DNA from: a virus | Direction: 5' to 3' (one strand) | Virus record (IMG/VR): IMGVR_UViG_3300001680_000212 | Coordinates: 1 to 27,643 of that record | Length of the DNA stretch: 27,643 nucleotides | Shown here: positions 1,945-24,700 of the stretch, piece after piece | How positions within the stretch are numbered: position 1 is the first letter of the stretch | How the letters are laid out: each line of letters begins with the position of its first letter | Notes under the pieces: generated by a model | Told to the model about the DNA's origin: nothing | Database searches by the model: none | Seen by the model: only the letters and a program-made list of their open reading frames with translations | Program-made: the position numbers and the translations under genes

Positions 1945-2883
1945 ATGGCAGGAAGTAAAAACAAAGCAGTAAAACAAACTGGCGTAAGGCAGTCTGTAAG
2001 AGATATAATGGCAGAGCACTCAGGATTCGGTGGCGGCCGCACTGGCAAGGGCATCGGCGGATCGAAGATCGTCGAAGGAGTTCCAAGATATATATCAAGC
2101 GATTCTGAAAAAGTAATTGCATGCCCAAGTAACTCATCAATTGTGTTGGGTAGAGATCGCCCCGCCTCGCGGCTTAGCGGCTACGGCGGATCTGGAGATA
2201 CACACTGCGCTTCTATCGATTTAGTCGCCGGCCGAATGGCTTCCAACGCAGCATCAACTGACGCGAACGATTCAGCGATGTCTGTAGATCCAAACTTCAA
2301 GATTGATGCTGCAAGAATTTATATTAGCCAAAAGACCGATGTTGATCAGAATTTCGGCCTTGCTTCGGGAATGGTTGGAGATGCAACCGCAAAATCAGCT
2401 ATTGGTCTTAAAGCCGACGGCATTAGAATTGTCGCTCGCGAAGGCATAAAACTAATTACTAAAACAGATTTAAGAAATTCACAAGGCGGAGAGGTAGGAA
2501 CTATCACCGGCGTTGATATCATCGCAGGTAATGATGATTCAGATCTTCAGCCGATGGTGCTAGGCAACAACGCGGAAGAAGCTTTGAATAAAATAGTTTC
2601 GCACATTGACAAACTAAACGGGATTGTAGACGGATTCGTAATGTATCAGATGAAGTTCAATATAGCTATGTCAACTCACTTTCATATTTCTCCTTTCTTC
2701 GGAGTCCCAACTAGCCCATCACCGACTGCAATGCCCGCCGGCGCCGTTGCAGCCGTCGAGCTTTTGGCGAGCACAAAGAGATCATTAATGACTCACCGTG
2801 CAAATTTGATCATGTTTAAAAATACGTATTTAAGTGTTGCCGGCGGCAAATATATTAACAGCCGCTACAACAACGTAAACTAG
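1945..2883 (+). CDS. Putative baseplate hub/spike-associated protein
   Basis: A protein of 312 residues from the ATG at 1945, two bases after the previous stop. A TTG at 1930 would give five more residues and overlap the lysin; I prefer the ATG, although neither has a clear Shine-Dalgarno. The N-terminus is basic and Gly-rich. The middle has short alternating beta-like segments (GRDRP near 69, CASIDLVAGR near 90-100) and a stretch near 154-172 (GLKADGIRIVAREGIKLIT) that resembles the repeated strands of VgrG/gp5-type needle helices. A mixed helical C-terminus with a conserved-looking MSTHFHISPFFG follows. Placement directly after a tail lysin and before the wedge genes fits a spike, hub or needle component, as with gp5 and gp5.4 in T4. 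The family is not recognised by name; the function rests on context and strand pattern. Confidence 0.5.
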   Translation: MAGSKNKAVKQTGVRQSVRDIMAEHSGFGGGRTGKGIGGSKIVEGVPRYISSDSEKVIACPSNSSIVLGRDRPASRLSGYGGSGDTHCASIDLVAGRMASNAASTDANDSAMSVDPNFKIDAARIYISQKTDVDQNFGLASGMVGDATAKSAIGLKADGIRIVAREGIKLITKTDLRNSQGGEVGTITGVDIIAGNDDSDLQPMVLGNNAEEALNKIVSHIDKLNGIVDGFVMYQMKFNIAMSTHFHISPFFGVPTSPSPTAMPAGAVAAVELLASTKRSLMTHRANLIMFKNTYLSVAGGKYINSRYNNVN

Positions 2884-2887
2884 GAGG
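2882..2887 (+). promoter_or_regulatory. Strong Shine-Dalgarno AGGAGG driving the ATG at 2897
   Basis: A perfect AGGAGG overlaps the stop codon of the spike-like gene and sits nine bases before the ATG at 2897. That ATG opens only a 22-codon frame, not the long gene that follows. This is one of the strongest ribosome sites in the window, so it is odd that it does not serve the 2017-residue gene directly. Confidence 0.7.
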
Positions 2888-2896
2888 CACTAAAAA

Positions 2897-2965
2897 ATGG
2901 CGATTAACAATAAGTTCCAAGAAACGACCGGGACAAAAGCCTATGGTGACAAATACCATGGCTGA
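2897..2965 (+). CDS. 22-codon ORF overlapping the next gene start (leader, coupling cistron or frameshift remnant)
   Basis: This ATG follows a perfect AGGAGG at ideal spacing and encodes 22 residues beginning MAINNKFQETTGTK, then stops at TGA 2963-2965. The stop overlaps the ATG at 2958 of the long downstream frame (ATGGCTGA), and another in-frame ATG for that gene lies at 2943. Three readings fit: a leader cistron that couples termination to reinitiation; a +1 slip on the AAAA run at 2935-2938; or a one-base error in that run. Dropping one A fuses the N-terminus smoothly to ...TKPMVTNTMADP of the 2017-residue protein, giving a similar Thr/Pro-rich style. Whether a separate peptide is made is uncertain. 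Confidence 0.35.
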   Translation: MAINNKFQETTGTKAYGDKYHG

Positions 2966-5900
2966 CCCCACAATAACCCCAGACGACCCCCTCACCGGCG
3001 CCGAGACCACGGTTACTACCCTTCCGATCATCGAAACTCCTGAGGACCTGTCCGCCCGGCTACAAGATGAGGCGGATCTCATTGCCGATGGGACCCTCAG
3101 TACCATCGCTATTACGTGCCCAGACGAATCCGGACCAATTCCAGATCCCATCGCCGGCGGAACCCATTATCTCTATTTAGAAGGAGATAACACAACTGTA
3201 TATTCGAATTATAGATTACGACAGAATCCGCCGGCTGGAACAATAACCGACACAACTAGGGTTTATTTACACCCGAAAGAAGAATACATCGGAAAGGCCT
3301 GCGCGTGGTGTAAGATAACTCCAATAGAAGGAGATTTATCAGGTGTTGATGTATATATAAAGCGCTCCAATCTGATTCCTCTATCGGGCACTATTGGTTC
3401 TCTGGACATAGTGTGTCCAACCTCCCAACCCGATCCGAGCGCCTTCATACCGAACTGGGTCATGCGCGGCGCCTGTGCTCCATTCTATGATCCTAGCACA
3501 ATGAAATACTGTGCGACAGTAGTGACATCTCATACAACGATCGACGAGGAGAGTTCTACAACCACCTCCGAAAACATTAAATCAGAAGTAATACCCCAAG
3601 GCATAAAGCAAATTTTGGAATACTTCTCTCGGCGCCCATCAGGTTATGACGATGCTATGTCTGCGTCAGAATATTTAATAGCTAACTCTTACAGCTTTGC
3701 AGAAACTGAGAAGTTATATCTAAGTCCGCGGCCAAATGCTAAAGTAAAAGCTTTAGTAACAATTGATTCAAAATATCTTCATGCAATCCCAAAGAGAGTA
3801 GTACCAGCAATTGCTCCCAAAAACGGAATAAGAAGTGTAATCTTTAATAGTCACAATCTGCAAGAAGAAATTGATTTGTCTGTTTCGACTTTGAACGATA
3901 TAGAGTCTAAAAAGTCTACATTTACGGGAACCATCGTTGATTTTTCTCCGTCTAAAGAAGCGAGAATGCTATCAAAAGTGCCCTCGGCTCTTAAAGAACT
4001 ACTAAGAACAAACGGGGCTGATCTAAGAACAACTCATGAAGATTTGGTAGAGATTACAGTGGATAGTTCCTTCAGCCCAGTACAAATCACTCTGTACCAA
4101 GAAGGCACCGGCCGAACTATGGACGTCGGTCTTAATAGTTTCATAGCCTCCACAGGAGTTAACAGAGCAAGAACAATACATTATCTCTTGCAGACACATA
4201 ATATGAATTCGTCTGTGAGATCCCAAAGATTTAAGTCCACACCATTTAACTGGCTCGAACACTGCACAAATTATACTTATCCGTCTTTAGAAGTTAGATT
4301 TACATCAAAACTGACTCCTGGCATTAACACAGAAAAACTTCAGGCCGACATGAAAAACATGATCGACAAGTTTAATAGTATGCCGTTCAAGGGCCCCGAA
4401 CAACTGAAATTTGAAGGCGCGCAACTAACGAGCCCGGCCTTCTTAAAGAATATGTCTCTCGCAAGAGCAGACTTTGAGCTTCCATCTGGAGACAACTTGC
4501 TGGCTAACTTACCAGAACTATTAGACGAAATTGGATCCATGGATGATCTGTTCGGAAAGTTCTTAGGGAAAGTAGAAATACCCAGTCTCATCCAGATGGC
4601 CATGGCTTCTATCATGGAGCAACTAGAATTCCCAGATTTGTTTGAGGCCCTTGTTGGTTCTATCTTAGGTAAACTTTCTTTAGAAGCAATTACCGATCAG
4701 ATCCTCGGAGAACTGGATGCCGATGTTCGAGCAGTAATCATAGAAGACTTTTTAACTGATCTTGGAATTCCGACTGAAGTATGCTTGTCAATTCTTGGTA
4801 GTCTGGGTATCCTCACACTTGATTGTTCAACTGCTGTTTCTACTGCAACATGGCCCGGCATGCCATATCTAAAAGAAGCAATTCCATCAGATCAGATCCC
4901 AGCAGCACTAAGAGAATATATTGAATTTGATGCGACTGTAGCTGAGACAGAAGGAAAGTTAGATGACTTCACAGAAGCAGCAGTCTGCGCCGGCCTTTCA
5001 GCGCTCAGCCCCGAAGATCTAATTAAACCGATTGTTCATCTCGCTGTGCACGGGGCCCCACAAGTTAACCTCCCTGCCACCGATTTAAATCTTGAAGTTG
5101 ACCGGAACGGAGAAAGTCCGGAGATCTCAGGCCTTGCCCCAACACCCGAAACGGCAGGTACATCCCTCCCCCACGGAGGCCTCTCGGGCCCGGGCCTGCC
5201 ATCTATCTCTGCTCCAAAGATTATGAGATCGATGTTCTCAGTATGCAAGCTGGAACTTAATTTAACTACACCGTCGATTATTGCATCGCTAGGTTCTCTG
5301 ATTAAAGCTCAGATTAGTTTAGGTGCTATTGACATACCAACATTTAAGCAACTTCCGGTAATATCAGCAAATTTGGATCAGCTATTGGGGGATCCCAACC
5401 TTAACCTGAATATGGAAATCCCTTCGCTACCCGGCGTTTCTCTGGAGATGCCATCATTAAATGTAGATATGCCGTCCCTATCGGTCGGTAGCCTAAACAT
5501 TCCTACGATAACGTTACCAGACAATATTCCAACCGACGATCTCATGGGTTTAGTATTCGACGGAATGCAAGATGCTGTTAAATCCGGCATTGAAAGCGCA
5601 CTGGTAGCCATGGCTAAATCTGTTATAGAGGGTCTCATCGGAGATCCATCCATAGGCCTAGGCGATTTGTCTTTCGGAGAAGCATCCATTGAGGATCTGC
5701 TAGCATCTTCAATCGGCACTTTTGCTGCCGCAGAAGAAACAATAAGTCAAGTATTCACTCCATTAGGAATTGAACCAGATGGCAGTACTGATGCAACAGA
5801 TGAAGAAATCATTGAAGCATTAGATTCATGCGGAAGCTCTGAAGTAACAGAAGTAGAAAAAGGTACACCATCAGAATTCTTGGGAGCAGTTTCTTCGGCA

Positions 5901-8900
5901 GTAACACTTCCGGAACTAAAGAAACTTTTAGAAGGGCGCCCAACACCAGAGACTTGCGAAACGATTCAGGCCGTGGTTGCTTCTGGTTTCCATAACTTCG
6001 CACCGGCACTTGAGAACTGTTCTCAAATCGAGGAAGTGTTTGGAAAGATTGGAGAGTCTGTAGAAATTAAACTTATAGAACAGGAAATCCCAAAGAAGAG
6101 AAGATTAGTTAACAAACTTGATTACTTATGCGGAGTCATCTGGGAGAATAATAATATACCCACACCCGATGATGCATACAAACAAACAATGGCTAACAAG
6201 GGGCTATCAAACGACGAAACCGAGGCCCAACTATCCGCAATGAAAGAAAGGAAGAAAGCGGCTCTTGAAGAACTGGCTGGTATCCTATCTGATATACAAT
6301 CGGATTCGGTCTTAGATGGTGTTGTACCTCCTGTCTACCCAGAGGACTGTTCACAACCATCCCTTATGCCTCCAGATTCAGAAATACCTGCGATGAACTT
6401 TGCTAATGATATGGTCATGTCTGCCCTCTATTCCGGAATTGAAATGGCGTGGATAACAGAGACCAGTATGTACTATCACAATATGTTGTCCTCATCTGAA
6501 GTTGGAGAGGCCGTTCCTTTTATCTATCCCGGAGGTACCCGGAAGGAGGTTAATCCGAAATTCATGACATTATACAGTTCTGGGCACGCCTTGTGTAACT
6601 CCAGCGCTAGCATATATACCACCGCAGATGACCTTGCCGCGGCTAAATTAATTATTAACGCCAAGAACCCAGCTAGCAACCCCGCGTCCGCCTTGATGGC
6701 CGGCCTGCATGAGAGTAGAAATTTTGAGTCAGAATACCACGGCTGCTTTAATGATCCAGAGTCTACGTTTTCATCATGGTTCCCGTGGACAGACCAAGTT
6801 TATAATTACGTGACCTACAAGTATGATTGGGTACCTAGATACACCCTTGGTGAAGACTTTAGCGTCAACCAGGACAACGACCGAACAGATCTTACAAACG
6901 AAGTAAATGTTCTACAATCAGTTGTGAGTTCATCAGTTAACAGAGACATCATAAAACTTTACGAGAATTTATCTTCCAGTATATCCACCAAAGCGTTGGC
7001 CGCTCCATGGAATGGTGAATTGGGTATCAGCACGGGAACAAACCCCTCAGAGTTGGCGATTTCTAGTATCATGATAAACACCGCCTCCTTTGGGTCTATG
7101 GCTTCGGGATTAGGTAATGTTTCCATGACAATACCACGCGTCCCGCCATCGGACGCCGCGTCTTTAGACACTTCTACTGAAATCGAGATCTCTCTTGATT
7201 CTGAAGAGCCTTGCGTGACATCCGCCGTCGCCATAATCCCTGTTTCTGCTTCTGTCTCTGCTTCTGTTGCTTTCTACCCGGGCGCCACCAAGCCGGCACA
7301 GATATTGTCTCAAATGTTATATTCCTCATATTTATCTCACGCTCTCGTGCCTATACAGGGCGCTGGCCTGCCCGCCAGTATCCATACCTACAACCCAACC
7401 GACGAGATTTTATTCGAGCCAGCCCACCGCAGCGATATGGACCGCTTAGCCCAAAAATCGAATCTCATCGGGCCTCATAATACCTTACATATACTAGAAA
7501 CGATGAGTGCTATGATAAACGATAGTAGTATCATGACAAAGGACGCTATAGAAGTAATGCAAATAGAAGATACCTCCACGCCCTGCGGCTCAGAATCTTC
7601 TACAGTTCTTGATCCCGCCGCGGCAAAGAAAGACGCTATGGATAGCCTTAATAGCTCCTGTCCTTCTCCTACAAAAGAACTGGAGTCAGGAAGAAATACT
7701 ACGCGCCAAGCTGGTATCGCTGGCCATATAGGCATAACCTTAAGGGTTTATATAGCAGATGTACTTCTCAGGGCCCTCTACGCCTTGCAGAAACTCCCGC
7801 TATCTGAACCTTCTGAAACCATGGTAGCTTACATATATGAAGATCTTGTCAGTGACATGCGGTCGATTGATTCTGACTATTATGCCAATTTCTTTGCAGA
7901 AAGTACGCGTATATACCTTGAAAGAGAAGATGCCAAGCCCGGCCTTACTGAGCGCGAGATATTCACTATCTTAATTAAAGAACAATTCTCATCAACGGCC
8001 ACGGCCCTTTCCGCTAATTTAGGTGCTGAGCACTTAGATTTGGATTTGTGGTTTCTAAACAATGGACCATGGAACCAAAATATTCCTATTCCAGATCCCA
8101 CCCTACCACCGTCCGCCATTATTTTCTACCCCGAGGACACATACTTTGGAATCCGGGACAATAGGAACATAATAATTGAAACAGATACGGCCAACATGCA
8201 TGCACAAATTGTGGTTTATGTAGAGAATCTCCAACTCAGCCCGGCCGAGACAGGCGCCCTCGTCCGTTTAGTCTTGGCCTCTGTCACTGCGCCTACAGCA
8301 ACAACTTCCAAAGATGAATTGTTTAAGCTATTAATTAAAACGGAAGAATATCAAACAATCTTTGGGTATTGTATACCCTTACGAGAAATAGTCTCAATGA
8401 TTCACTTATCGATAGCGATAGGAGTGACTCAACAGTTGCCGGCTGTTCAACAATCGTTCGATGGTACAAAGCACGCCCTCCGAGAACTATTTGATATCCT
8501 GTTCTATGGAGATCAACAAGGAGTGGAATATACAGGAACTCAATCAGGAATAGACGCCATGGCAAACGCCGAAAACAATGTAGGGTCAGATCCTGAAACT
8601 TTCTCTGATGGCACTCCAATGGCAAAGATGATGGCCAAGATGGCACTTGAAGCTGTACCTACCATGATTAAGGGCTTAGCTGAGAAATTAGATCCGAATA
8701 TTAAAAGGTCAAAACTAATTAGAGATGCAGCATTAAAGGTTGGCGAAACAATCCATCCGATTAATGCTTCTTTGAAAGCGCTACCTATGAATATTATCCC
8801 GCCACCATTCGGAGGCATCGGCCCTCCCATCACACCACTAGGCTTAGCATACTGGGTCTTGGCCCGCCCGGATAAAATCGAGAAGCGCAAAGCCAAAGAA

Positions 8901-8996
8901 GCCGGAGACAACCCGGGAGTAGGCTCTGCCACCTCAGATACTGGCGGAGAATCAAGTAACGAAGAATGTAACCCTAACGAGGAGGAAACTAGCTAA
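2943..8996 (+). CDS. Large virion structural protein (2017 aa) with SH3-like N-terminal domain
   Basis: A protein of 2017 residues from ATG 2943. ATG 2958 (MADPT) is an alternative with a GGTGA eight bases upstream, and a frameshifted start at 2897 is also possible. Residues 1-45 are Thr/Pro-rich and disordered-looking. Residues about 75-148 resemble a bacterial SH3 fold (RLRQNPPAGTI, then WCKI and VYIKRSNL). A mixed region to about 500 is followed by helical, Leu/Ile-rich stretches (about 500-700), a Pro/Gly-rich linker (about 700-760) and a run of degenerate x-PSL units (about 824-865: IPSLPGV, EMPSLNV, DMPSLSV). The rest is mostly helical with acidic patches. No catalytic motif, signal peptide or convincing membrane span is seen. 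It lies between spike-like and gp25 genes, so a hub, tail-tip or inner baseplate role is likely. I do not recognise the family. Confidence 0.75.
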   Translation: MVTNTMADPTITPDDPLTGAETTVTTLPIIETPEDLSARLQDEADLIADGTLSTIAITCPDESGPIPDPIAGGTHYLYLEGDNTTVYSNYRLRQNPPAGTITDTTRVYLHPKEEYIGKACAWCKITPIEGDLSGVDVYIKRSNLIPLSGTIGSLDIVCPTSQPDPSAFIPNWVMRGACAPFYDPSTMKYCATVVTSHTTIDEESSTTTSENIKSEVIPQGIKQILEYFSRRPSGYDDAMSASEYLIANSYSFAETEKLYLSPRPNAKVKALVTIDSKYLHAIPKRVVPAIAPKNGIRSVIFNSHNLQEEIDLSVSTLNDIESKKSTFTGTIVDFSPSKEARMLSKVPSALKELLRTNGADLRTTHEDLVEITVDSSFSPVQITLYQEGTGRTMDVGLNSFIASTGVNRARTIHYLLQTHNMNSSVRSQRFKSTPFNWLEHCTNYTYPSLEVRFTSKLTPGINTEKLQADMKNMIDKFNSMPFKGPEQLKFEGAQLTSPAFLKNMSLARADFELPSGDNLLANLPELLDEIGSMDDLFGKFLGKVEIPSLIQMAMASIMEQLEFPDLFEALVGSILGKLSLEAITDQILGELDADVRAVIIEDFLTDLGIPTEVCLSILGSLGILTLDCSTAVSTATWPGMPYLKEAIPSDQIPAALREYIEFDATVAETEGKLDDFTEAAVCAGLSALSPEDLIKPIVHLAVHGAPQVNLPATDLNLEVDRNGESPEISGLAPTPETAGTSLPHGGLSGPGLPSISAPKIMRSMFSVCKLELNLTTPSIIASLGSLIKAQISLGAIDIPTFKQLPVISANLDQLLGDPNLNLNMEIPSLPGVSLEMPSLNVDMPSLSVGSLNIPTITLPDNIPTDDLMGLVFDGMQDAVKSGIESALVAMAKSVIEGLIGDPSIGLGDLSFGEASIEDLLASSIGTFAAAEETISQVFTPLGIEPDGSTDATDEEIIEALDSCGSSEVTEVEKGTPSEFLGAVSSAVTLPELKKLLEGRPTPETCETIQAVVASGFHNFAPALENCSQIEEVFGKIGESVEIKLIEQEIPKKRRLVNKLDYLCGVIWENNNIPTPDDAYKQTMANKGLSNDETEAQLSAMKERKKAALEELAGILSDIQSDSVLDGVVPPVYPEDCSQPSLMPPDSEIPAMNFANDMVMSALYSGIEMAWITETSMYYHNMLSSSEVGEAVPFIYPGGTRKEVNPKFMTLYSSGHALCNSSASIYTTADDLAAAKLIINAKNPASNPASALMAGLHESRNFESEYHGCFNDPESTFSSWFPWTDQVYNYVTYKYDWVPRYTLGEDFSVNQDNDRTDLTNEVNVLQSVVSSSVNRDIIKLYENLSSSISTKALAAPWNGELGISTGTNPSELAISSIMINTASFGSMASGLGNVSMTIPRVPPSDAASLDTSTEIEISLDSEEPCVTSAVAIIPVSASVSASVAFYPGATKPAQILSQMLYSSYLSHALVPIQGAGLPASIHTYNPTDEILFEPAHRSDMDRLAQKSNLIGPHNTLHILETMSAMINDSSIMTKDAIEVMQIEDTSTPCGSESSTVLDPAAAKKDAMDSLNSSCPSPTKELESGRNTTRQAGIAGHIGITLRVYIADVLLRALYALQKLPLSEPSETMVAYIYEDLVSDMRSIDSDYYANFFAESTRIYLEREDAKPGLTEREIFTILIKEQFSSTATALSANLGAEHLDLDLWFLNNGPWNQNIPIPDPTLPPSAIIFYPEDTYFGIRDNRNIIIETDTANMHAQIVVYVENLQLSPAETGALVRLVLASVTAPTATTSKDELFKLLIKTEEYQTIFGYCIPLREIVSMIHLSIAIGVTQQLPAVQQSFDGTKHALRELFDILFYGDQQGVEYTGTQSGIDAMANAENNVGSDPETFSDGTPMAKMMAKMALEAVPTMIKGLAEKLDPNIKRSKLIRDAALKVGETIHPINASLKALPMNIIPPPFGGIGPPITPLGLAYWVLARPDKIEKRKAKEAGDNPGVGSATSDTGGESSNEECNPNEEETS
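7242..7270 (+). repeat. Short 12-base tandem repeat encoding SVSA units
   Basis: About 2.4 copies of a 12-base unit (GTTTCTGCTTCT, with one change in the second copy) encode Val-Ser-Ala-Ser repeats inside the 2017-residue protein. It is too small and too imperfect to be more than local slippage. Confidence 0.5.
8979..8985 (+). promoter_or_regulatory. Ribosome binding site GAGGAGG for the gp25-like gene
   Basis: GAGGAGG lies ten bases before ATG 8996, inside the last codons of the preceding gene. It fixes the start of the gp25-like gene, whose ATG shares one base with the upstream stop (TAATG). Confidence 0.75.
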
Positions 8997-9416: not shown

Positions 9417-11225
9417 ATGGCAAAATATGACGACGATAATGCAAGAGTGCCGATTAAATACACGGCCCGAGACTTCGCATCGATCAAATCAGAATTAGAA
9501 GATTATATCCGGAGATATTACCCGGATACATATAAAGACTTTAACGAGGCTTCCTTCGGGGCCATGATGGTTGATACTGTTGCTTATATTGGTGACATGC
9601 TCTCCTTCTATCTGGACTATTCTGTTAACGAGTTATTCCTTGACACAGCGCTGGAATATGGAAATGTTGTAAAGCTCAGTCGACAGATGGGTTACAAGTT
9701 CCGAGGAAAACCAACAGCTTACGGTGAAATAACCATATATGTTTTAATTCCAGCCACAGTCTCTGGCCTAGGCCCTGACTCTTCTTATATGCCGATTATC
9801 CAAAAGGGCAGCCAATTTTATGACAAGAGCGGCAACTCGTTTTTGTTAGCTGAAGACATCGATGTCTCTTACTCTAGAAATGAAGTGGTAGTTGCGACTG
9901 TCGACGCCGTGACCGGTATACCAACTCAGTACGCGATCAAAGCTACAGGCCAGATAATCTCCGGCCTCTTAGCAAGACAAACCTCTGCTATCGGTTCTTT
10001 CGAGAAGTTCCGGAGAGTTCGGCTTAACGGTTCTAATATTGCAGAAATCATTTCTGTTCGTGACACTGAAGGCCATGAGTATTATGAAGTAGATTATCTT
10101 TCCCAGAATGTTGTTTACAAAGAGATTCCAAACAGAGGCTCGAATTCTGAGTCTGTCCCGAAGATCATGAAAGCCGTAACAGTCCCTCGACGCTTTGTAG
10201 TCGAGAGAGATAAGACGGTAACTTATTTACAGTTTGGTTATGGCTCAGACGCGAGTGTAACAAACGATAATATTGCAGAACCATCTAGAGTAGTAATGAA
10301 TCTCCACGCAAGAGAATACGTTTCTAGTACAAACTTTGATCCAACTAATATACTCAAAGGAGACAAATTTGGTGTTGGTCCATCGAACACTAAGTTGACT
10401 GTTATCTATCGCACAAACGGTTCTAATAATGCTAACGCTTCTGCAGATTCAATCGTTCAGAAGGGAACAGTAAGAACTAAATTTGCAAATGCGTCTAAAC
10501 TTGAAAAAGGCACGATGGCCGCTGTTAGAAAATCGATTGAAATCACAAACGAAGCACCGGTTCGCGGAGATGTAGCAATTCCTTCTGCACAAGAGCTTAA
10601 GCGCCGAACAATCGACCATTTTGCTTCCCAAGGCCGCGCGGTAACAGAAAAAGATTATACCGCTTTGGTATATGCCATGCCACCACAATTTGGAGCGATT
10701 ACAAGATGCCGGCCTTTGCAGGACACGAATTCATTTAAAAGAAATATTAATTTGTACATTGTATCAGAGGATGCCAAGAATCGTTTAACCGCCGCGAACT
10801 CCGCGTTAAAAAATAATTTGAAAACTTGGCTAAATCGTAATAGAATGATTAATGATAGTATTGATGTTCTTGATGCAAAAATATGCAATGTTGGCATTGA
10901 ATATTCTATTGTTGTTGAAGCTAATCAGAACAAGTTTGAAGTTCTAGAATTATGTAATCGCCTATTAAGAAAGAGGTATGCTAAAATGCACGACATTGGG
11001 GAACCCTTTTACATCACAGAAGTTTACGCTATTCTCGGCAAGATCGACGGAGTAGCTGATGTAGTAAACGTCGAGATTAAAAAGAAGATCGATGGCAATT
11101 ACTCTTCAATAGCTTTTAACTTCGATGACAACAAGACAGCCGACGGAAGATTCCTGGCCTGTCCCAAGAATGTTATTTTTGAAATTAAGTATCCCTCAGA
11201 GGATATTGTGGGGTCAGTTGAATAA
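9417..11225 (+). CDS. 6: Baseplate wedge protein, T4 gp6-like (baseplate J family)
   Basis: 602 residues, close to T4 gp6 (660). The N-terminus is diagnostic: Y15-T-A-R-D-F20, an acidic helix ending RRYYPD, then E44-A-S-F-G and V-A-Y-I-G-D60-M-L-S-F-Y-L-D, the pattern of gp6/P2 gpJ/TssF-type wedge subunits. A central beta-rich region carries QFGYGSD-type motifs, and a second conserved block at about 409-430 (VTEKDYTALVYAMPPQFG) begins the C-terminal dimerisation-type domain common in baseplate J proteins. gp6 forms the inner baseplate ring that ties wedges together and triggers sheath contraction. The start has a good AGGAGA site; the stop shares one base with the next ATG. Confidence is high for the family, and the T4 symbol is used by analogy. 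Confidence 0.9.
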   Translation: MAKYDDDNARVPIKYTARDFASIKSELEDYIRRYYPDTYKDFNEASFGAMMVDTVAYIGDMLSFYLDYSVNELFLDTALEYGNVVKLSRQMGYKFRGKPTAYGEITIYVLIPATVSGLGPDSSYMPIIQKGSQFYDKSGNSFLLAEDIDVSYSRNEVVVATVDAVTGIPTQYAIKATGQIISGLLARQTSAIGSFEKFRRVRLNGSNIAEIISVRDTEGHEYYEVDYLSQNVVYKEIPNRGSNSESVPKIMKAVTVPRRFVVERDKTVTYLQFGYGSDASVTNDNIAEPSRVVMNLHAREYVSSTNFDPTNILKGDKFGVGPSNTKLTVIYRTNGSNNANASADSIVQKGTVRTKFANASKLEKGTMAAVRKSIEITNEAPVRGDVAIPSAQELKRRTIDHFASQGRAVTEKDYTALVYAMPPQFGAITRCRPLQDTNSFKRNINLYIVSEDAKNRLTAANSALKNNLKTWLNRNRMINDSIDVLDAKICNVGIEYSIVVEANQNKFEVLELCNRLLRKRYAKMHDIGEPFYITEVYAILGKIDGVADVVNVEIKKKIDGNYSSIAFNFDDNKTADGRFLACPKNVIFEIKYPSEDIVGSVE

Positions 11226-12733
11226 TGGCTATTAAAAGATATACTGCCGCGGCAGACACAACTATTACAAATGCTTATAAAACAGATTTGTCAACACGCG
11301 CCACCGGCTCCAACATGGGAGCCTCAGATATATTGGAAGTGTTCCATATCTTTGGCGCCGCTTCAACTACAATAGCTGCTAGTTCTTCCGAGGCCGCTCG
11401 TTCTTTAATAAAGTTTTCATCAGATACTATCTCCGCCGACCGCGCTGCAGGGTCTGTCCCTGCCTCTGGGAGCGTTAGCTTCTACCTAAGACTCTTTAAC
11501 GCAGAACACGGCTCGACTTTACCAAAAGATTACAGTATAGTGGTTCACCCCATCTCCGGCGGCACAGGCTCTAATTGGTCTGAAGGCACCGGCGTTGATA
11601 TGGACACCTACTTAGACGCAGGTTACTGTAACTGGACAGCTTCTTATAGCAACTCATCAGGCCTTAACTACTGGAACAATGAGGGCGGAGACTTCTACTC
11701 TGCTTCCAACGACACCTATGAATATTCATTCGATACTGGTACTGAAGACATCCTGTTAGACGTCACATCGATGATGGAAGAATGGATCGCAGGCACAAGA
11801 ACAAACCATGGCTTAATCGTAAAGCTAAGTTCTTCTTATGAAGATGCTGAGCGCTCTTACTACACTAAAAAGTTCTTTGCTAGGGGCACACAGTATTACT
11901 ACAAGCGCCCCCTCATTGAAGCAAGATGGAACTCTTCTAGAAAAGATCAAAGAGGAAACTTCTATTATAGCTCTTCTTTGGCTCCTGCTGAAGACAACCT
12001 AAACACACTTTACTTATATAACTATATCCGCGGACAACTTAGAGATATCCCAGCCGTCGGCACCGGGGAGATCCTTGTTAGTCTATACTCCGGCTCATCC
12101 AAGAACACGGCCCCCGGTGGGGATCCTCTTAAGCAATCAGCCGGAGGAGATGTTACATCAAACTTAGATCTTCACGCAACTGGTGGCTGGGTTTCAACCG
12201 GCGTATACTCTGCTTCTCTATGTCTGACTGCATCTACATCTTCTCCTTCACAAATATTTGATATGTGGTGGTCGGGCAGCGAGCAATATCATACCGGTAC
12301 TCTATACCCCACAGCGCTGCAGGCTACATCTTATAACCCAACAGAGAGATATGTGTCTAAGATTGTTAACCTAAAGTCAAGTTATTATACTCACGAAACC
12401 GCGCGCTTCAGACTGTTTGCTCGTCAAAAAGATTGGAGCCCAACTATTTATTCTAAAGCCAGCAAGGAAATATCAAATTATTGCATTGAAAGTGCATCTT
12501 TCAAAGTTATTCGAGTTGTTGATGAGTACGAAGTTATTTCATTCGGAACAGCCAGTACTCAACATACCGCTTTGTCATACGACGTATCGGGCAACTATTT
12601 TGATATGGACATGGGAATGTTCGAACCTGATTACGCATACGCGATTAAACTGGCATATTACAACGGCGCCTTAGGGGCCTATGAAGAACAACCAGAAGAA
12701 TACCGGTTTAGAGTAGAGAGACATGAGCCTTAA
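11225..12733 (+). CDS. Virion structural protein with DNRLRE/CBM96-like beta-sandwich
   Basis: 502 residues. The ATG overlaps the gp6 stop (TAATG), so translation is probably coupled. Residues about 36-242 resemble the DNRLRE/CBM96 fold: a strand pair ending ARSLIKF, then VSFYLRLFNAEHG, a middle NWSEGTGVD, a DVTSMMEEWIAG helix and HGLIVKL strand, closing with RPLIEARW. These folds often sit on cell-surface or fibre proteins and bind glycans, but no binding site can be assigned here. The C-terminal third (about 375-500), with YETARFRLF-like strands and DVSGNYFDMDMGMFEPDYAYAIK, looks like a second conserved structural domain. Position between gp6 and the giant wedge protein suggests an outer wedge component, perhaps filling the place of T4 gp8, although I see no direct similarity to gp8. 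The protein is Ser/Thr/Tyr-rich. Confidence 0.7.
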   Translation: MAIKRYTAAADTTITNAYKTDLSTRATGSNMGASDILEVFHIFGAASTTIAASSSEAARSLIKFSSDTISADRAAGSVPASGSVSFYLRLFNAEHGSTLPKDYSIVVHPISGGTGSNWSEGTGVDMDTYLDAGYCNWTASYSNSSGLNYWNNEGGDFYSASNDTYEYSFDTGTEDILLDVTSMMEEWIAGTRTNHGLIVKLSSSYEDAERSYYTKKFFARGTQYYYKRPLIEARWNSSRKDQRGNFYYSSSLAPAEDNLNTLYLYNYIRGQLRDIPAVGTGEILVSLYSGSSKNTAPGGDPLKQSAGGDVTSNLDLHATGGWVSTGVYSASLCLTASTSSPSQIFDMWWSGSEQYHTGTLYPTALQATSYNPTERYVSKIVNLKSSYYTHETARFRLFARQKDWSPTIYSKASKEISNYCIESASFKVIRVVDEYEVISFGTASTQHTALSYDVSGNYFDMDMGMFEPDYAYAIKLAYYNGALGAYEEQPEEYRFRVERHEP

Positions 12734-15700
12734 AGAACACTTCAATTCATCAAAAACAGCACAATCTGCTAGCCTATCTGACCTTGCTCAAGAAGTTGAG
12801 TCGGACAGGTACGTTGAAGCATATAGAAAGCTGCGCGCAGAATATGTCCCAAACGTAGACTTTGCTACTGCATCAAACTTCTCCCACTATGGTTCGGCCG
12901 AGAAGTATTACGAGGACAGTGTAAAGAGAATCTACCAGAACTATCCATATGATGGTTCCAAATATGAGATGTTATGTTGGGAAATCTCAGGCTCTCACTT
13001 AGATAAGTGGATTTATGACAACCGCTATCCTAAGACGACAGGTCATATTACAATGGGTATCACTGGCAAGGCCACCGGTACTCAGGAAAACGGATATGGT
13101 GTCCCAGATAAGAAAGAGTACTTGTACCTTATGGGCGGCCCCCACGCTCCTGAATCTGGTGAAGACACTTCCACACTCAAGAAAGTTTTTGATCTAGGAA
13201 ACGTATATGACGTTGATACCGCTAGAGAAAACAACTTAGAGTTCAAGCTATCGCGCGGTATTACCACAGAGTTCTGGCTTAACAAAGAAGCTTTTGATAG
13301 TACATCCACAGAGCACGAAGTAATCTTTGACTTGTGGAACCAGAGAACTTCCGGAAGCTTAGACTACGGCCGCCTTAGAATTGAATTAGCTGCCACGGGA
13401 TCCGAAAGCTTCAGAATCACAGCCCGATCGGGTTCCTCAGGTTTCACTGATGTCTCATTTGGCTCCGATGCTCCATCGCCAGCGACAGTTGCTTCATCGA
13501 CATGGAAGCACTATGCTATAAGTCTTATTAACAGTGACTCAGACGTCGCTGCTAAGCTTTACGTTAACGGCGCGCTCACTGCTACCAAAACCATCACAGG
13601 CGCCTTCCTAGGCCCTGTTACGGGCGCCCTAGACGCAACTATCGGTTCTCTCCGAACCACCCCCTCTGGGGATCTATACCACTCTGACATTGGCTTGGGA
13701 TCTGGTAAGCTATCTGCCTCGCTTGATGATTTCCGATACTGGAAAACCGAGCGCTCACCGAAACAAATTGGTAGGAACTGGTTCACCAACGTATATGGCG
13801 GCACTAATAGTGATGACGCTAATACAATGTTGGGAGTATACTATAAGTTTAATGAAGGAATCTATGGTTCTGCTTCATATGACGCTACTATTTTAGATTA
13901 CTCTGGAAGGCTTTCTAATGCCTCTTGGATTAACTATACTTCTAGTCTCGGAATGAGAAGCACTACCTCGGCAATGGTACTGTCCAATGCAGCGGAAAGA
14001 GAAAGAAAAGATCCGATTATATACAGGACTCACCCAGAGGTCGCAGATCTTTACTCAGGATTAAAGGTTTCAGGATCCCATTGGGACATGCAGAACAATT
14101 CATCAATTATGAATTCCCTTCCTGCTTGGACTACGGAGTACAATAACCAGCCGAATAAAACACTTCAAGAGATGACCCAAATTGTTGGTAGCTATTTAGA
14201 TAAGCTCCATCAGCAGATCTCTTCTTTGGGTTCTATTAAAGAACCATACGGCCAAGCCTATACGCACAATATTCATTCTTCCTCTACCGTACCAGTCCCG
14301 TTTTCGGATCGATTGGTATCAGGCCTAGGCTTCGCAGCACCAGAATTATTTAGCGAAGCAAAAATGGTTCAAGCGTTAGCCTCTAGAGACGAGGGCTATG
14401 AATATGAAGAAGATATTTACAAGATCAAGAATCAGATCTATCAAAATATCTATAGCTCAATTTTCAACATCTACAAATCCAAGGGCACAGAAAAGGCCTT
14501 TAGGAATCTTATCCGATGTTTCGGGGTTGATGATGAGTTAATTAAGATTAACCTTTATGCAAATAACTCGACTTACACAATCAGAGACAATTATCGCTAT
14601 AGCTCAGTAAAACAAAAGTTTATAAGTTTTAATCATCCGGATCGTTTTGCTTCAACGTTGTATCAATACGCGGATCCTGAAACTCCAAACAGTCGTTCGT
14701 TTATCAGCGGCTCCGGAGAGATAGAAGAACACATTCCGTTTACTCTAGAAGCCGAAGTGATCTTCCCGTCAAAGCCTGACAAGTCAGAAGAGGGCTGGTA
14801 CGACACCTATTTTGTAACATCTTCTGTGTTCGGAATGCACGAAGCAGATTCTACAACACCATCTGATAACACAATTCCGAGTACAGATTACTGTGGTATG
14901 GTTGTTACAGCAGTCCGACCAGATAAAGATTCTAACGATGCTACCTTCGTATTGAGTTCAAGTGTGCTGTCCGCTCCCATATCTTCCTCGGCTCTTCCTA
15001 TTGAAGACGTTTATGAAAATACAAAGTGGAACTTCGCTGTCCGCATGCGCCCAGCAAAATGGCCCTTCCCGGACTACATTAGCGGCTCTGTACTAAAAGA
15101 TACACACCCGATTGGAACACCGCCACACACACCAAACGAAGACTACATCCTTGACTTCTATGGCGTACAAATGGTGCAAGACTTTAAGCAAGACTCTTTC
15201 CATGTGTCCGCATCAGTCTCTCATGAAGACGGAAAGAACTTCATGGTATCTTCCAAGCGCGTCTTCGCTGGAGCCCAGCGCGCTGACATCTCATCCGCGG
15301 CCTTGACTCATAACTGTGACGCTAAAATAAGTAATGTCGCAGCGTGGTATAACTACATTGGTAACAAAGAGATCGATGCACATGCCAGAGACATCTCTAA
15401 CATGGGTGTTAAAAATCCATTAGAGCCAATCTACATATTCGACAAAGATTTAGGAACAGTTGCTATACCTCAAGCTGAAACGCTCCTGCTACATTGGGAC
15501 TTTTCTCAAGTTACTAGTTCTGGTCTAGAGTCCTCACCCGGCTCAGTCGACGCAAAATATACCGTTGCCGACATCTCCTCGGGATCAGTCGCAAATGTAA
15601 GCAGATACAACAGTATCTTTGGAGCAATAACCGAAGTTCATCACACAGCTAGAGGCGACTATAATCTACCAAGTTCAACGAAAGTTGTAAGTGTAGAGTA

Positions 15701-18700
15701 TATCCCCACAGCAGTACAAGAATTACCAGAGGTCCAGAATAGCAGTGACATGATTAAGTTGCTCTCTAGAGACGACGAGATCTTCACCTCTGATACACGC
15801 CCGACTGATTATTTCTTCGCATTTGAAAAGAGCATGTACGCTACCATTTCTGAAGAGATGGTAAAGATGTTTGCAACAATAACAGACTTCAACAATCTCT
15901 GGGGCCAACCGGTCAACCGGTACCGCTTAGAATATAAAGACCTATCGAAACTTCGTCAAATGTTCTTCGAGAGAGTAAGCAATACTCCCGACATCGACAA
16001 GTATATTGAATACTATAAGTGGTTTGATCAAGCCATCGGCAAAATGCTACTGGAGATGATACCTGCATCGGTCCAGTCCACTGAATCCTTAGTAAATACT
16101 GTTGAGTCTCATGTTCTTGAGCGTAACAAGTATTGGACGAAATACCCTTCCATGGAAATGAAAGGGACAGATCCAGAATCCGGACTCGAAGGGATTCACA
16201 GACTTACTGAGAACTGGAGAGATACACATCACCCGGTTACTAACTCAGAGCAGGACAACTGCGGCTATTGGAATAAGCTAGCCCTAAGAGATGAAATCGG
16301 AGGAGCACTCTCCTCTTCAGTTGAATCTGTAAACACTTCTAGAGCCGCGATCTTAGAAGCCCGAACCTCTGCTCTAAACCGTTCATATACAACTCCAGTA
16401 CGCCTAAACGTTGCTTCCCGCGGCGTCATTGGCGGAGGAGTTAACTTTGATCAGAACAAAAAGACAGATTACGTTTTTGCCGCTACGGCACCGTTCAGTC
16501 CAAAGCCAATTGATTTCGGCCTCCCCGGAGCAATGCCGTTACGATACTTGGTTGCTCACAGTTCAAGCTTTGCTTCCGCCTCCTATGGCTGGGGCACTAC
16601 CGCCTGTGATGACGAGGCTCATCCTCTTAAGAAAACAAAGATCTCTCACGAAATCATCGATGGAATGAGAGCCTTTGGCCTAAGAGAAACAAACGACGAG
16701 TCAGAGTTCTATGCAGATCTGCTGACTCCGTTCAACCTTATAGAAGACAGTGTTACAACAGGATACAGTGCACAGATTAATAGCTCAATAAAGGTTGCTG
16801 ACAACTCAAATATCGTTAATGTACACCACGACATGTATGGATCTGATGGCGATACTCCTATGCAGAGTCCGTTCACAGAAAGGCATGTCGGCGGCCGCAA
16901 GTTCCGACACAACAAACTCTCAGTATTCGGAATCTCTGAGAGAGAAGAGGGTTGGTTACTATTGATTGGTTCACCCACAGGAGCATACGCTCTTGTAGGC
17001 CCGGACTATCCACACCCTTACGGCCCAGCCCCCTACCGCGATCGCCCAATCGGCGGTGCTAAATTTAGAGATGAGACAGCCAAGCGCCCCCTAAACATCC
17101 GAAACATCAAGACAACCACTGCTGCTGCAGGTAACTATATCAACGACTATGAAGTCGTGCAGATGGCCGGCCGAAGTGTAAACAACCTTTACATGCGCGC
17201 TGTTGTTGGTGATCTTAATATTTCAAAGACAGGTTCTCTACCCCAGTCAACACATGCTAATGCATTGTTTAATACCAGAGATCCGGAAGATAACTTTACA
17301 TTGCCAACAAGAGAGAGCAACAAAGTTATTATTGCTAGTAAGTTCTCTTCACCCGGCGGAGCAGAGCAATCTTCCCGAGGCTTCCTTGATATTCACGCAG
17401 AAGAGTTCTCAGTACACAATGCCCACACCTACCGCAACTTGGGAGTGTTGGGCTCAGGCTCAACTTCTGTCCGACTCGGTAGCGGCTCTACAGCCGACCA
17501 CGGCGGCGCCGTCACAAGGATCCATGCAGATGCTCCTGAAGGTCTCCGAACGCTGCGACAGAGGCACTCAGCCCGCTTTGGTATGGACTCACAGTACTCT
17601 GCCCACGGAGCATGGCACAAAGTCTATAGAAACACAAGAACCCAACCTGTTACTGACGCACCTGTTGTTGAGAAACACGACAATGATTATGTCATTCAAC
17701 ACATTCCACAAAATGACAATCAGTATAAATGGATTGGTCAGGCACTCACCGCATCTTCGGTTTCCAGTACCCCAACCTCAGATGAGTTGGGCGCCGCAGG
17801 CTTTGGTCATTATGTAAGCTGGCTTACTCGACCCTCTGGCTCAGGCCATAGTCTGGGTTCACAAGAGCCATTGAGCTTTAGACTAGACGGTATTACTTCA
17901 GGATCTCTACCTCATGCCACAAGGATTCTACGACCCGGAAACATATTAGGAGAAGAGAGAACAGATAACTCTGGCTCTGTCGATGCTTTTAACGCAATAA
18001 TACACGATCGTATGGGCCCCTATGGCTGGCCATCTTGGAAGCAAACCCGCGGCGGCGAGCATCCAATTATTGTTTCCCACGGTAAGAATAACAAGATGAC
18101 TTTCTTGACAGAAGCTGTCAATGGCTCAGGGAACATTTCAGTAAACATTGAGGAATTTGATGAACCATCAGTAACTCACGCCTCTAACCCGACTTTAGCA
18201 GTTTATGATTCAAACACCGGCACCGACGACAGAACTTATGCGAAATACTCACACAAGCCTATAGGGTTCTCAAGTGACGCAGTGAATGTCTCAGCATTAT
18301 ACACTCCATCATCGGAAGCAGTTCAGGAGGTCATAGACTTCGGAAATGCGTCATCTGACTACTCTCTTGTTGGTGTGGTACACCGACAAGCAATATACCC
18401 TCCAGCAGCAAACTATGGTCGCAACCGCAACAGGCGCCGCGAAAAGTTTGTGTCTTCTTTCTGGGCTGCAAACAAAGACGCTGAGCACAGAGAGGTCACT
18501 CTATATAACCAACACCCGTACGGCCGCGTTACCGGTTCAACTCTTTTCCTTGGCGCCCCCGAAGACTTGGGATTCGAAACTTCTTATAAATTCCTCGCGG
18601 CACCGAACAGTTCGTCATTCAGCAAGTGGCCGCTTGATATCCGCAAGAACTTTTTGACAAGTGATCCCTACGCCGGCGCATATGATCTGCGACTTAAATT

Positions 18701-21700
18701 CGATGATCCCTACATCGACATCGAGGCAGCCAACCAGATCTTGGCGCCCATTATTGAACAACAAGTCAAAACGTTACCCACTTGGTGGTCGACCCAATAT
18801 ATCAATGGTGTATCACAAGATCTCATTGGCGATTCTGCCGGTAACCTGTTAACAAATTACTCCTTATTTCACCGCGGTCTGCCCGCACAGCCGGGCTACT
18901 ACGGATCCGCAGGCTCTCCTGTGGACGAGCTATTCACAATGCCCGTGTACTCTCGTCCGCACACAATCGTTGCGAGGGACAGTTGGCGGAATCCTTCGGC
19001 GCCTAACGCTATCGTTGCACGCTCATACCTATATGACGAAACCCTCGGCCACTTGGCACCACCCAATCTGCCAAGATTAAGCGCTTCCGATTACCCCGCG
19101 GTCGACTGGCGGCACGGCCTTACAACAAACGCCCGGGCAGAAAAGGGCGCGACCTACTCGCTTACGCGGTCGATCGGACATCAAGTCGAAGGCCTTTATA
19201 CTCACGCCTCTCCTTGGGATACCCCGGTCCAAGCCGGCCGCGCGCCGTTCTATGATGACTACGAAGAGTATTATAACAATCTAAGAAACAAAACGCATGA
19301 TAAAGCTGTAATACCAGAATATAGAATTAGCTCAAGAATGCCACATTATATTCTAGAGAAAGGCGGAAACTTCACTGCTAAAGACTATGAGTGGCTGTCA
19401 ATCGTTGGAAACTTATCTTCGTCCGGAAAAAACGTTTTTGGTGATCAAGGCTTCCGCGACGACCTTAGTGGAGAAAACGAGATATTTTACAATGATTATG
19501 TCTTATCGGATCCTACTAAGAAATTTGTTGAAGTAGTAAATGACTACGCTAATCTTAAGCCGTATAATCTCACTTTGACAGCCGAAGCTCTAATGAAGTT
19601 TTTGCCATATGATGGGTTTTATCCTGCCACTCGCTGCGAACAGATGACCAAGCAATTCGCGGCTTCTTACGCCAAGCACGTAACACTGAACTCTGACGTA
19701 CCAAATAGCACCGAGGCTTATAAGAATATTAACCGGGCAACTAATATTCCCAATGAAACAGCCGGCGATGACTATTTTAAAAACAAAGCACAAAATTACT
19801 TTGCAGGCTTCCGAGCATTCTATGGACCATTGTTCGCTCCTGGAATTCTTTTCAATACCATCAAGTCAGGTATTGCAGTAGATTATCCTACGCTAAGCCA
19901 TGGTATGGTCCCTACGGCATCTATCGACCGCGACGGAGGAATAAACTACCAGATCGGAAACGAGTACTTTGACAATCGTGTACCATTCGAGGCCCTAATA
20001 GAGCCTGAGGCGCACATGATGGGCAAGTTTGTTGATATGGAGCCACACCCGGATGCCCACATTAATGTTACTGCATCTTGGAACGGACAAGGCGATCCTC
20101 TGTATAAAATGATGATGCATAATTTCTTAGCAGAAATCCCCAATTTCTTCCTCGACGATAGTGGCCTAAAGTCACTTCAGTCCGAGGCTCTAGAAGAGAT
20201 TTTTGCAGAAAAGACTGACGCATCAACAGTCGCAGTCCCAGAGTTTAAAGAGTACCGAGCCCTATTACGTATATACAAGAGCCAAACTGGCTATGATCCT
20301 CTGGTAGAAAACATGCCACCATCATGCTCGAACTTAGCACAAAATCACCGCGGCCAACCAGTACATCTATACCAGCAACAAATACAAAAGGCATATTACT
20401 CTGAGCCCACTGGCTCCGTTGAGACGGCGTGGAGAGACCCATCTTCGGGCGGCGACAATCGCAGTTTGGTCGGTACACCGACTGCGGCGAAATTTAGATC
20501 CGCCGCGGAAGCAAATATTCCTCTTTTTGTTCCAAATGCTGATATTAATGCCATTGATAACGCCGCCGGCCATTTAGGAACTGGTTCTCATCATTACGCC
20601 GCATATTTACTTCAATCTTTCCCATCCGGAACTGTAAGCTATAACCCGGCCGCAGACCCCGGCGATAAGCAGGGGATATTCCTGCCTTATGAAGCAAAGT
20701 CACACCCAATGTGCGGCCGCGCCCTTCCTGTTTATGAGACTGACCGATTGCGATATCGTTCAAGCTGGAGAGACCCGGATCACCTGAGGCTCGACGGAGC
20801 AATGAGTTCTTCGCTAGCATTCTATGATGACACCAATGAATTAACAAGAAAGCTGAGTGAAAACACAGGCCTGCTAAATAACCCTCTTCAAATCAGAAAT
20901 GGGTTTAAGTATCACAATGAGGCCTATAACTATCCCCGGCCCCAACGCATTCAAGCAATTGATACTATCATGATGTATTCTCGCCCCTCGGGCTTCGGTC
21001 CTCCCTGCGCCGGCGGCTACGCTATCTCCCCTGCGACTCATCTTGTGGAGAAACATCATCACAGTCCATGGCTACCAAAGCTTACGGGCTTTGATACTTC
21101 CATTCGCATAGGCATCCGCACCGGAGACTTCGACCAGAACGATAGCATAAATACCAACCCAGAAAACAGCGCGAATATATTCAAAAGTAACTTCAAGGCC
21201 CGCGACAATAGCTCCGACGGTTCTAAACTAAACGGAACGACCTATGGCATGCACGATTCTACAAATGGATTCAACGCACCATTCACACCGCCATATTTCG
21301 ACGGCCAGTCCTGGGCATTCATGACTTGGAAGCCGACCAGCGAAGGCCCATTTACAATGGCTCAAGTGGCTGACCAAACGAAGATTGAATACTTGAGATA
21401 TGAATGGAATTTCGTATCGGGCGCTTATGGTGATATGGGAACGTATGGACCTCAGGGCTTCGCAATGAACACTAACGCGATGCATTTGGATGCGTCTTTG
21501 AATCTTAAACAGATTATTGCCAAACCTACAGTAAGCTACGACTCCCTCGGAAACCCCATGATAATCAGTGAAGATAGTAATAAAAATGTATGGGCAATCC
21601 AAACAAAATTTGAGACGCCTATCCTAAACTTTATTGATGCTTCAACAACAGCTACAATCTCGGGTAGTGAGCACTGCACTTCCTCGTACAGTCCCCCGAA

Positions 21701-24700
21701 CAGGGTTCCTGCTTATGATGCAACGCTACACCCAGATCACCGTGCCATCCCGGATGTGACTCATGGCCTGCTTCGAAATAAGATGAAAGGCGCGCCGTCA
21801 GACTCGGTGATGTACGAAAATAATGAGAATATCAGCGTAGAAAATCCAGATACCCGATACTCTTTATTCAAAGGTTTGGTATATAACACAGCCAGCTATT
21901 TCAGCGGTACTGTACCATACGATCAGGGCTTCCCTGGCCTCACTGCACCAGCAGGTATGTGGCATCAATACGGCAAATATGATGAAGAACCTTCAGTTGG
22001 AATCTTTATGCAAATCTGCGATATCCCAGCAGCCTATGCTATGAACGGAACAGAGTTACCAATTGCCAATCCAATGTTTTTGACAGTTACTGGCTCTCCG
22101 GATCATGCCATGGGCGCCTATGACAAATATTGGGACGGAGCCTACTATCTGAATATTGATGGCGATGATTTATCTCATGTATACGATGATACTGATACCG
22201 CATATAAAAATGGCCTTATTTTCCCAAATACTGGTTCAAACAATCCCCTCGAAACGAGGCACGCGTACAGAAGTTTGGCTAAAATATCGTCCACGGCTGA
22301 CGCACACGTGTTCGATGCTGGCCTCTCGACCGCGGTGTGTATGCAACGAGTTCTTCCCGGTTTTAAGAAATCAGATTATAAATGGTTACAGACTTGGCTG
22401 ACCGGCGCGATCGCCGGAACGATCCCATCGCCCGCCACGGCGGGAAACTCGGCAATCGGCGCCGAGATCACGGACATCATCAGCGATGCGAAGGCCTCAT
22501 CCACTGGAGTATATCAATACACGATCGCCGGCACAACGGTCACCCCTGGCATGGTTACTAATGAGGCAAACCACTGGCCATATAAACCATTTGAGAGCGG
22601 ATATGTAGAGGCTGTAAGTTTCTTGTCTGGTGCGAATAATCCTCGTACGGGTTACCGACACTCCGGAAGCTTGTCTTCCTCTGCAAATATAAGACCTGTA
22701 GGCGGCAGTCAGGTCATGAAGTGGCGCCTTGCTGCCGGTGGCAATAACGAGGGTTTAGTAGCCGATCGGACTCACTTACAAATCGTCTCTACTGATGATG
22801 GCATAATCGTCGATACAATGTATTCTCCATATGTGAATTACGGCCAGCGCCTAGGCCCGACTCCTCATGCCGTTGGTCCAGGCCAAACGGCCAGCGAACC
22901 GCAAGTGTTAAAGAGCGAGATCATTGGGCCCGTGCGCGGCTACCCTGGCCGTCGATACGGCGAGTATATGGGCATAGGCATGAGCTATTATGATCAGGGT
23001 TCTATGCAAATTGAAATAAACCAAACTTCTTCGGATACCTCTTCAGCCGAGCAGTACAACTTTGTAAACATGCCCAATCCCCCAACGGGACATAGTAATA
23101 ACGCATCCAGCTTCATGACACAAAAAGCAATTGGATACCAGTCACCTGTACACAAGAAGATAAAAGGGATCATTCCTACACCACCACCGCTTTCTGCGTC
23201 TGTTCTTCTTGCTGAAGCATTATCCACATCTGCTTATTCCTTCCCCGACCGCGGTGGCGCTAAAATTGCAAATGACGCGACTTATCCGATCTCCGGAGGG
23301 CTTCCCCCTAGACTAGCCTCCGGTGAGTTAACCTCTGAGCTTGGCGGTTGGAAGAGAACTGCTCTGCCCATAGCTCCAACTTTGCCAACATGGCAGGGCT
23401 CGTCAGAAGAAAACCATTTTCTCTCCTCGTCCATCGGAGTATACGCCGATCGAAACATGTGGTCAGAGGAAGCTATTTCCTATGAACTAGTTGATTCTGG
23501 TTCTGGTGCTGATGACAGCCACTTTAGTGAGACTAACAACACCTTCAGAAAGGTACTCGCCGGCACTCATGTTACTACGAACGGTATTCTCGCCCCCGCC
23601 AACTATCCGAAGCCCACCTCCATGGCCGGCCCAGTATCAGATCTGTTTGGGCAAGCAGGCCAGTATGCCGATATCGATATCGATGGAACGCCGGCCAATC
23701 CCCGCGCGCGCTTGCCAAACAATATGTATAACGACATGTACAGATACAAACCAGTCAATCTTAGCGGAGATAACAATATCCTCCAACGTTGGTACAGTAC
23801 CCAGAGCCACATGAGAGCAATACGCGAAGCAGACGAGCTTTTGCAACATCAGTCGGCCGGCGGTGACAACACTGACATTAATCAAACGACTACTTTGTGG
23901 GATACCGACGCCGGCGTCGACGCCCTTAACTCTAGAAGAACTATTCCCTGGGGTCAGTTCATGCCGAGAAAGGGAGATGTTAGCTCAACCGGTTCGCTAT
24001 GTGACCTTCTAGGCTTTGATAAAAGTCCTGTAAAACTTGGACAACCTGCAGAGACAAAGAAAATTAAGGAAGCTATTGTAGCTATCCCATATGTTATCAG
24101 TAGCGCTTCCGGAAAAAAAGAATTCTTGAAGCTAGAAGATCCTAATAACCCGGCAATAATCAAATTATATGAAAATGGTACCTTGGCCAAGAGCGTTCAA
24201 TCCGGCTCTGTAGAAGTTGCAATGTATGAACAGATGCAGAAGATGGAAGAATTTGTGCTCCCACCTCACTTAGATTTCTTGAAGAATCGCCAGATAGATC
24301 CGTTTGCTATGTATATCTTCCCCTTTGAATATGAACTAAACAGAAAGGATATTACAGACATTTGGCAAGGAGTAATGCCAGAAAGCGCAATAAAAGTAAA
24401 AGAAGAACAAAGTTCGATCCGCCATACTCTTGTTCCGGGGAATAGTACCCCAATGTCTTATAACATCACTACCAATGGAGAAGCAATACCAAATGATCTT
24501 AGGTTTATGGTATTCAAGATCAAACAGCGCGCCGAGATCAATTACTATAAGCAGACGCTTACCTCTGTCGACGATGGCAAATTTACGTTCAAATTTAGGG
24601 TAGGATCCGCCGATTACGCCGATACAACTACAATAACTCCAGATTACAGTTATAACTGGCCGTATGATCACTGTTCATTGATCGAAGCAGGCAAGCTGAC

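Follow-up and report, generated by a model that had tools for sequence, protein, structure and literature searches.

Organisation of the gene B/gene C junction

The window, by which is meant the entire virus record of 27,643 bases from an uncultured phage, carries genes A to I without any break across about 27 kb. When ATG 1945 is taken for gene B, the seven gene junctions of the contig other than that between B and C range from −11 to 31 nt, with a one-base overlap at three of them and a four-base overlap at one. Gene B falls in no named family, as searches of PHROGs at 0.001 and of Pfam at 0.1 were both without a match, and no relative of either gene B or gene C was detected by sequence among solved structures at 0.1. 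Gene C gave no PHROGs match at 0.001 and just two Pfam matches, both below their cut-offs. It is placed beside the baseplate genes because of its neighbours: the next gene, at 8996, is gp25-like according to both Pfam and PHROGs, and the gene at 9417 is a baseplate wedge subunit according to PHROGs, with a gp6-like Pfam match below its cut-off.

Between genes B and C lies a 22-codon open reading frame (ORF), preceded by a strong candidate ribosome site and ending over the start region of gene C (Table 1). The sequence-only reading had described the AGGAGG, the ATG at 2897, the 22 codons with their TGA, a run of four A (2935–2938) inside them and a gene C beginning in another frame at 2943 or 2958, and all of these coordinates hold. 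The small ORF and the gene C ORF are one base out of frame with each other. As in a translationally coupled pair, the upstream stop overlaps the downstream start, the small ORF ending 8 nt into gene C when this is counted from ATG 2958.

Table 1 Features of the gene B/gene C junction (positions in the window)
Feature	Position	Strand	Remarks
Gene B	1945–2883	+	312 aa from ATG 1945 (317 aa from TTG 1930); upstream partner; relatives in viral contigs
AGGAGG ribosome site	2882–2887	+	Overlaps gene B TAG stop (2881–2883); spacing 9 to ATG 2897
22-codon ORF MAINNKFQETTGTKAYGDKYHG	2897–2965	+	TGA stop 2963–2965; proposed translated bridge
Hairpin	2938–2963	+	Predicted; 10 bp, one-base bulge, 5-nt loop; inside 22-codon ORF
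ATG 2943	2943–2945	+	First ATG of gene C ORF; without start-site features
GGTGA	2945–2949	+	Possible ribosome site for ATG 2958, spacing 8
ATGGCTGA stop/start overlap	2958–2965	+	Proposed gene C start (2958) and TGA of small ORF
Gene C	2958–8996	+	2012 aa from ATG 2958; large protein adjoining baseplate wedge genes

The small ORF compared with chance

The 22-codon frame is probably more than noise. A first-order Markov model of the window was used to draw 20,000 sequences, and 0.78% of them had, within 60 nt, an ATG with a Shine–Dalgarno (SD) match of at least 6 nt and at least eight open codons. When in-frame codon use was compared with out-of-frame codon use the 22 codons scored +7.49 bits, a value reached by 17 of 4693 open out-of-frame stretches and not exceeded by 3718 of 8915 true in-frame stretches. 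Taken by themselves, the first 15 codons were less telling (389 of 6993 out-of-frame stretches were as high) and the last seven were strong (59 of 11426), so much of the codon signal sits in the last seven. Over the same first 15 codons the frame of gene C scored −5.5.

ATG 2897 has an SD match of 6, scored like all such matches against the SD core, and a GCN second codon. A bridging ORF with an SD match of at least 6 that ends at an ATG with a match of at least 5 was found at none of 6242 internal ATGs, and at four of the 6242 when both matches were required to be at least 5; these counts are guides, the SD, GCN and bridge features having been picked after the site was seen. A looser count across the family, of short ORFs with an SD match of at least 5 that end at a gene start, gave 10 distinct matches among 863 ORFs, the present one included. 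The control gave 68 of 5639 internal ATGs, which puts the looser count at chance level, and the idea that bridging ORFs are a general habit of the family was rejected on this comparison.

Relatives of the junction

A search with gene B gave 24 loci, and the best 80 of the 339 loci from a gene B profile were used. The resulting 104 junction loci were reduced to 77 distinct ones by merging identical junctions and dropping L107 and L118, which have no long ORF in their short flanks. Starts in the junction table were assigned mechanically, by taking the longest ORF and its first start codon, owing to which the rows for L159 (416 nt), L105 and L121 miss part of gene C. A further 65 loci with another gene (11225–12733) were kept outside the junction counts and were used in the local search and in the bridge and codon controls.

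The gap from the gene B stop to the next start was at most 24 nt in 72 of the 77 family junctions. The exceptions were gaps of 30 (L025), 38 (L127), 56 (L013), 67 (L098) and 416 nt (L159), the last being an effect of ORF choice, as a 136-aa ORF there really begins at a gap of 1. The corresponding gaps in the window are 13 nt to ATG 2897, 59 nt to ATG 2943 and 74 nt to ATG 2958. ATG 2897 is where the family puts its start, and distances of 59 and 74 nt fall at the long extreme of the range.

The best relative of gene B was 69% identical, in collections that may omit records very near the window. Pattern searches with the whole of gene C and with its first 266 aa returned 12 and 13 matches, respectively, with no relative among them, and a degenerate DNA pattern covering nine residues encoded by the small frame returned 0 matches. 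One genome collection gave 74 pattern matches, none of them a relative, and the phage records gave none. A gene C profile found seven loci, every one from contigs already found via the other searches.

The relatives run in a single frame from near the gene B stop, and their N-termini, which differ in length and sequence, are not alignable at the site. No homologous small ORF was present in the 77 junctions, so that no conserved co-location of stop and start was seen among them. L008, L127 and L159 were alone in having an out-of-frame ATG ORF at the junction, and the sequences of these ORFs are unrelated. In L127 (3834–3930) a 9-codon ORF ends ATGCCTGA over the start of the gene C homologue, the same overlap as in the window, which speaks for the bridge reading given below. 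This ORF is without an SD match of at least 5 and failed the looser family-wide bridge count; the overlap in L127 may be due to chance, because bridges with SD matches of at least 5 are not enriched in the family.

The N-terminal tail of gene C, some 70 residues long, is variable and for the most part of low confidence in the structural model; the conserved region of gene C starts from GTHY. Similarity to gene C starts near residue 73–75 in L002, L003, L005, L093 and L095 (the alignment row of L095 began one codon before its ATG) and later in the other relatives found; L091 aligns weakly from residue 5. The model of the first 420 residues from 2943 had a mean pLDDT of 68, with residues 1–31 and 49–70 below pLDDT 50. 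These comparisons show an extreme N-terminus that is free to vary. A structure search with this N-terminal model gave no match at E 0.001, for which reason the fold of gene C is left unnamed; the best match was a plant protein (E 0.005, TM at most 0.22) and SH3-like matches came near E 1.

The start of gene C

A longest-ORF listing puts the start of gene C at 2943. The 2017 residues that the sequence-only reading gave to the protein correspond to the ORF open from 2943 to 8996, which was confirmed; the N-terminus proposed here is different, as the features of the two ATGs suggest that gene C likely starts at 2958. ATG 2958 has GGTGA (SD match 5) in front of it and GCT, a GCN codon, in second position; both are absent at ATG 2943. 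The combination of an SD match of at least 5 with GCN was found at none of 529 other plus-strand ATGs of the window (with the eight assumed starts set aside), at 2 of 432 minus-strand ATGs of the window and at 11 of 6242 internal in-frame ATGs. Among the 77 gene C starts of the family, 17 have an SD match of at least 5 and 29 have a GCN codon.

Codon use was then compared between the two frames from 2939 to 2956. The small frame scored +4.95, a level reached by 43 of 12192 out-of-frame stretches, and its score remains coding up to its TGA. The frame of gene C scored +1.27, with 1676 of 12192 out-of-frame stretches as high, a value that is within the coding range (2846 of 9059 in-frame stretches are no higher). 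The difference between the two scores favours, but does not prove, a frame change near ATGGCTGA rather than at AAAA. The removal of one A from AAAA, which had been pointed out as a way to join the frames into one, is thus less favoured by codon use, although the frame of gene C is still acceptable over this segment.

The predicted hairpin

The hairpin predicted inside the small ORF takes both ATG 2943 and ATG 2958 into its paired bases, together with most of GGTGA. In one of the two models of translational coupling the upstream ORF spans an RNA structure that masks the downstream start, and this is the arrangement predicted here. The predicted mean unpaired probability of ATG 2958 was 0.02, below all 77 family starts, which are poorer in G+C than the 2958 site. 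The ATG at 9417, that of the wedge gene, was likewise below all 77 family starts (0.07), and one family start came out lower than 2958 when the measure was widened to −14 to +6.

Within 31 nt, folds as good as or better than this one occur at 44 places in the window, 2938–2963 included, and 37 of 537 ATGs in the window are as buried as ATG 2958; the hairpin by itself therefore proves nothing. The fold of a 121-nt piece was not unusual (z −0.84) and that of a 66-nt piece was (z −3.1). An RNA family at the junction was rejected, as Rfam gave no match at the site at gathering scores.

Interpretation

On balance, we read the 22-codon frame as a short translated ORF that bridges two tail genes, B and C, and hands ribosomes on from one to the other. 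Ribosomes finishing gene B, the TAG of which overlaps AGGAGG, would start at ATG 2897, open the predicted hairpin while translating across it and stop at the TGA. Translation of gene C would then begin at ATG 2958, five bases upstream of that stop, either by reinitiation or through the exposure of GGTGA and ATG 2958. The whole would be a relay from gene B to the short ORF to gene C, in which every stop is near the next start. A chain that includes the short ORF has no long gap; without it, 59 or 74 nt separate gene B from gene C. Since ATG 2958 is predicted to be almost fully paired, a ribosome translating upstream would help, and a hairpin inside a translated short ORF would make gene C dependent on that ORF. 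Coupled reinitiation, a programmed +1 shift and an assembly error had been put forward for this site, and coupled reinitiation at ATGGCTGA fits best, ATG 2958 having both GGTGA at a spacing of 8 and a GCN codon. That the mini-ORF and the start-hiding hairpin set the dose of a giant baseplate-region protein, and tie its translation strictly to the tail gene before it, is a stronger proposal and a distinctly unlikely one.

As to its origin, the bridge may well be what is left of an older N-terminus of gene C, because it lies at the start distance usual in the family and conservation is lacking in the N-terminal tail. A former N-terminus cut off by an indel would account for both the position and the codon use of the short ORF.

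Alternatively, gene C is in reality, or was in its ancestor, a single frame that begins at ATG 2897, and an assembly error or a recent indel splits it in the contig by a one-base difference. Family starts do cluster at the distance of ATG 2897, and the stretch of about 87 residues from 2897 to GTHY is near the 90–108 of L093, L003, L095, L005 and L091, but L002 has 31 and L007 about 19, and L004, L006 and L010 are without the stretch. Published base rates for orphan cases also favour errors or indels: orphan singleton frame transitions in the GeneTack survey are expected to be 33% gene overlaps and 67% errors and indels (PMC3711429). The unbroken run of genes A to I suggests, however, that errors are rare in this contig, and the start-like features of ATG 2958 (11 of 6242) would be left to chance. 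A switch at AAAA also fits the codon signal less well, while a switch close to 2958 would be in no conflict with it. We regard an error or recent indel as a tentative possibility, on the unlikely side; if the junction is merely that, it matters for annotation alone.

It is unlikely that the small frame is due to chance and that gene C, starting alone at either 2958 or 2943, is preceded by an unusually long gap. The chance-level result of the family-wide bridge count would agree with this, but the AGGAGG-like site with its ATG in 60 nt (0.78% of Markov draws) and the codon score (17 of 4693) would both have to be coincidences. Gaps of at least 56 nt are moreover seen in 3 of the 77 junctions, one of which (L159) results from the choice of ORF, and ATG 2958, which would have to act unaided, is predicted to be buried in the hairpin. 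A programmed +1 frameshift joining the small frame to gene C is highly improbable. In its favour, the two frames stand at +1 to each other and the UGA stop has a C after it, which is a weak termination context. Tailed phages use +1 and −1 shifts, but the phage cases described in that source involve the chaperones of tail assembly and proteins of the coat or tail, not an N-terminus (PMC5009743). No signal for a shift is visible: the codon after AAAA is an ordinary GCC and, judged by eye, the P-site tRNA at GGC UGA would re-pair poorly in +1. A homologous split was present in none of the 77 junctions, as opposed to what a conserved shift site would give.

Two further mechanisms were considered and rejected: leader-peptide attenuation, as no run of one codon was seen by eye, and polymerase slippage, as the run is of only four A.

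Comparison with known systems

A review of translational coupling gives two models for it: translation upstream unfolds the next start, or ribosomes reinitiate; it adds that some short ORFs merely deliver ribosomes (PMC12548453). Genes VII/IX of phage f1 and the coat/lysis genes of MS2, as described there, resemble the present junction in that the upstream ORF crosses a hairpin that hides the start and in that stop and start are close; here the upstream ORF is of 22 codons and predicted, and its coupling is proposed from the sequence. Ribosome-delivering short upstream ORFs, among them MIRU at start codons, provide a second parallel, as the short ORF here could likewise carry ribosomes onward, although the overlap is ATGGCTGA here and of 4 nt in MIRU (PMC12548453). 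The minigene of the axe-txe operon is also a very short operon ORF and is said to influence the translation of its neighbour (PMC8708949); axe-txe is a toxin–antitoxin operon, however, and the likeness drawn here is one of layout. The split genes of the GeneTack survey share with this site two frames that would join as one protein, whereas here there are start-like features at 2958 and a coding signal up to the TGA (PMC3711429).

The junction is thus a plausible new case of a known arrangement, one that is not conserved in the collections searched. Among the papers listed in literature searches for such leaders in phage structural genes, none was recognised as a matching case. The junction has a practical bearing on where gene C is annotated to start, and it offers a clean case, open to testing, in which two late phage genes are linked by a very short ORF.

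Other observations

What appears, by position and by eye, to be gene C is split into two consecutive ORFs with a TAATG overlap in L121 (3899–6873) and into three consecutive ORFs in L159 (3839–6834); we count these divisions in favour of the bridge reading. In L105 a 263-aa ORF (3856–4647) lies between the homologues of genes B and C; its end (WHVDHIIPQSAL...ENLRPL) is HNH endonuclease-like by eye, with no Pfam match at 0.01. The B–C junction may be an insertion site.

Elsewhere in the window, positions 12723–24797 form one ORF of 4024 aa, without a PHROGs match at 0.1. Gene A (2–1942), which is open at the start of the contig and stands just before the baseplate genes, carries Amidase_2 and VanY peptidase domains and is likely to encode a tail-borne cell-wall enzyme.
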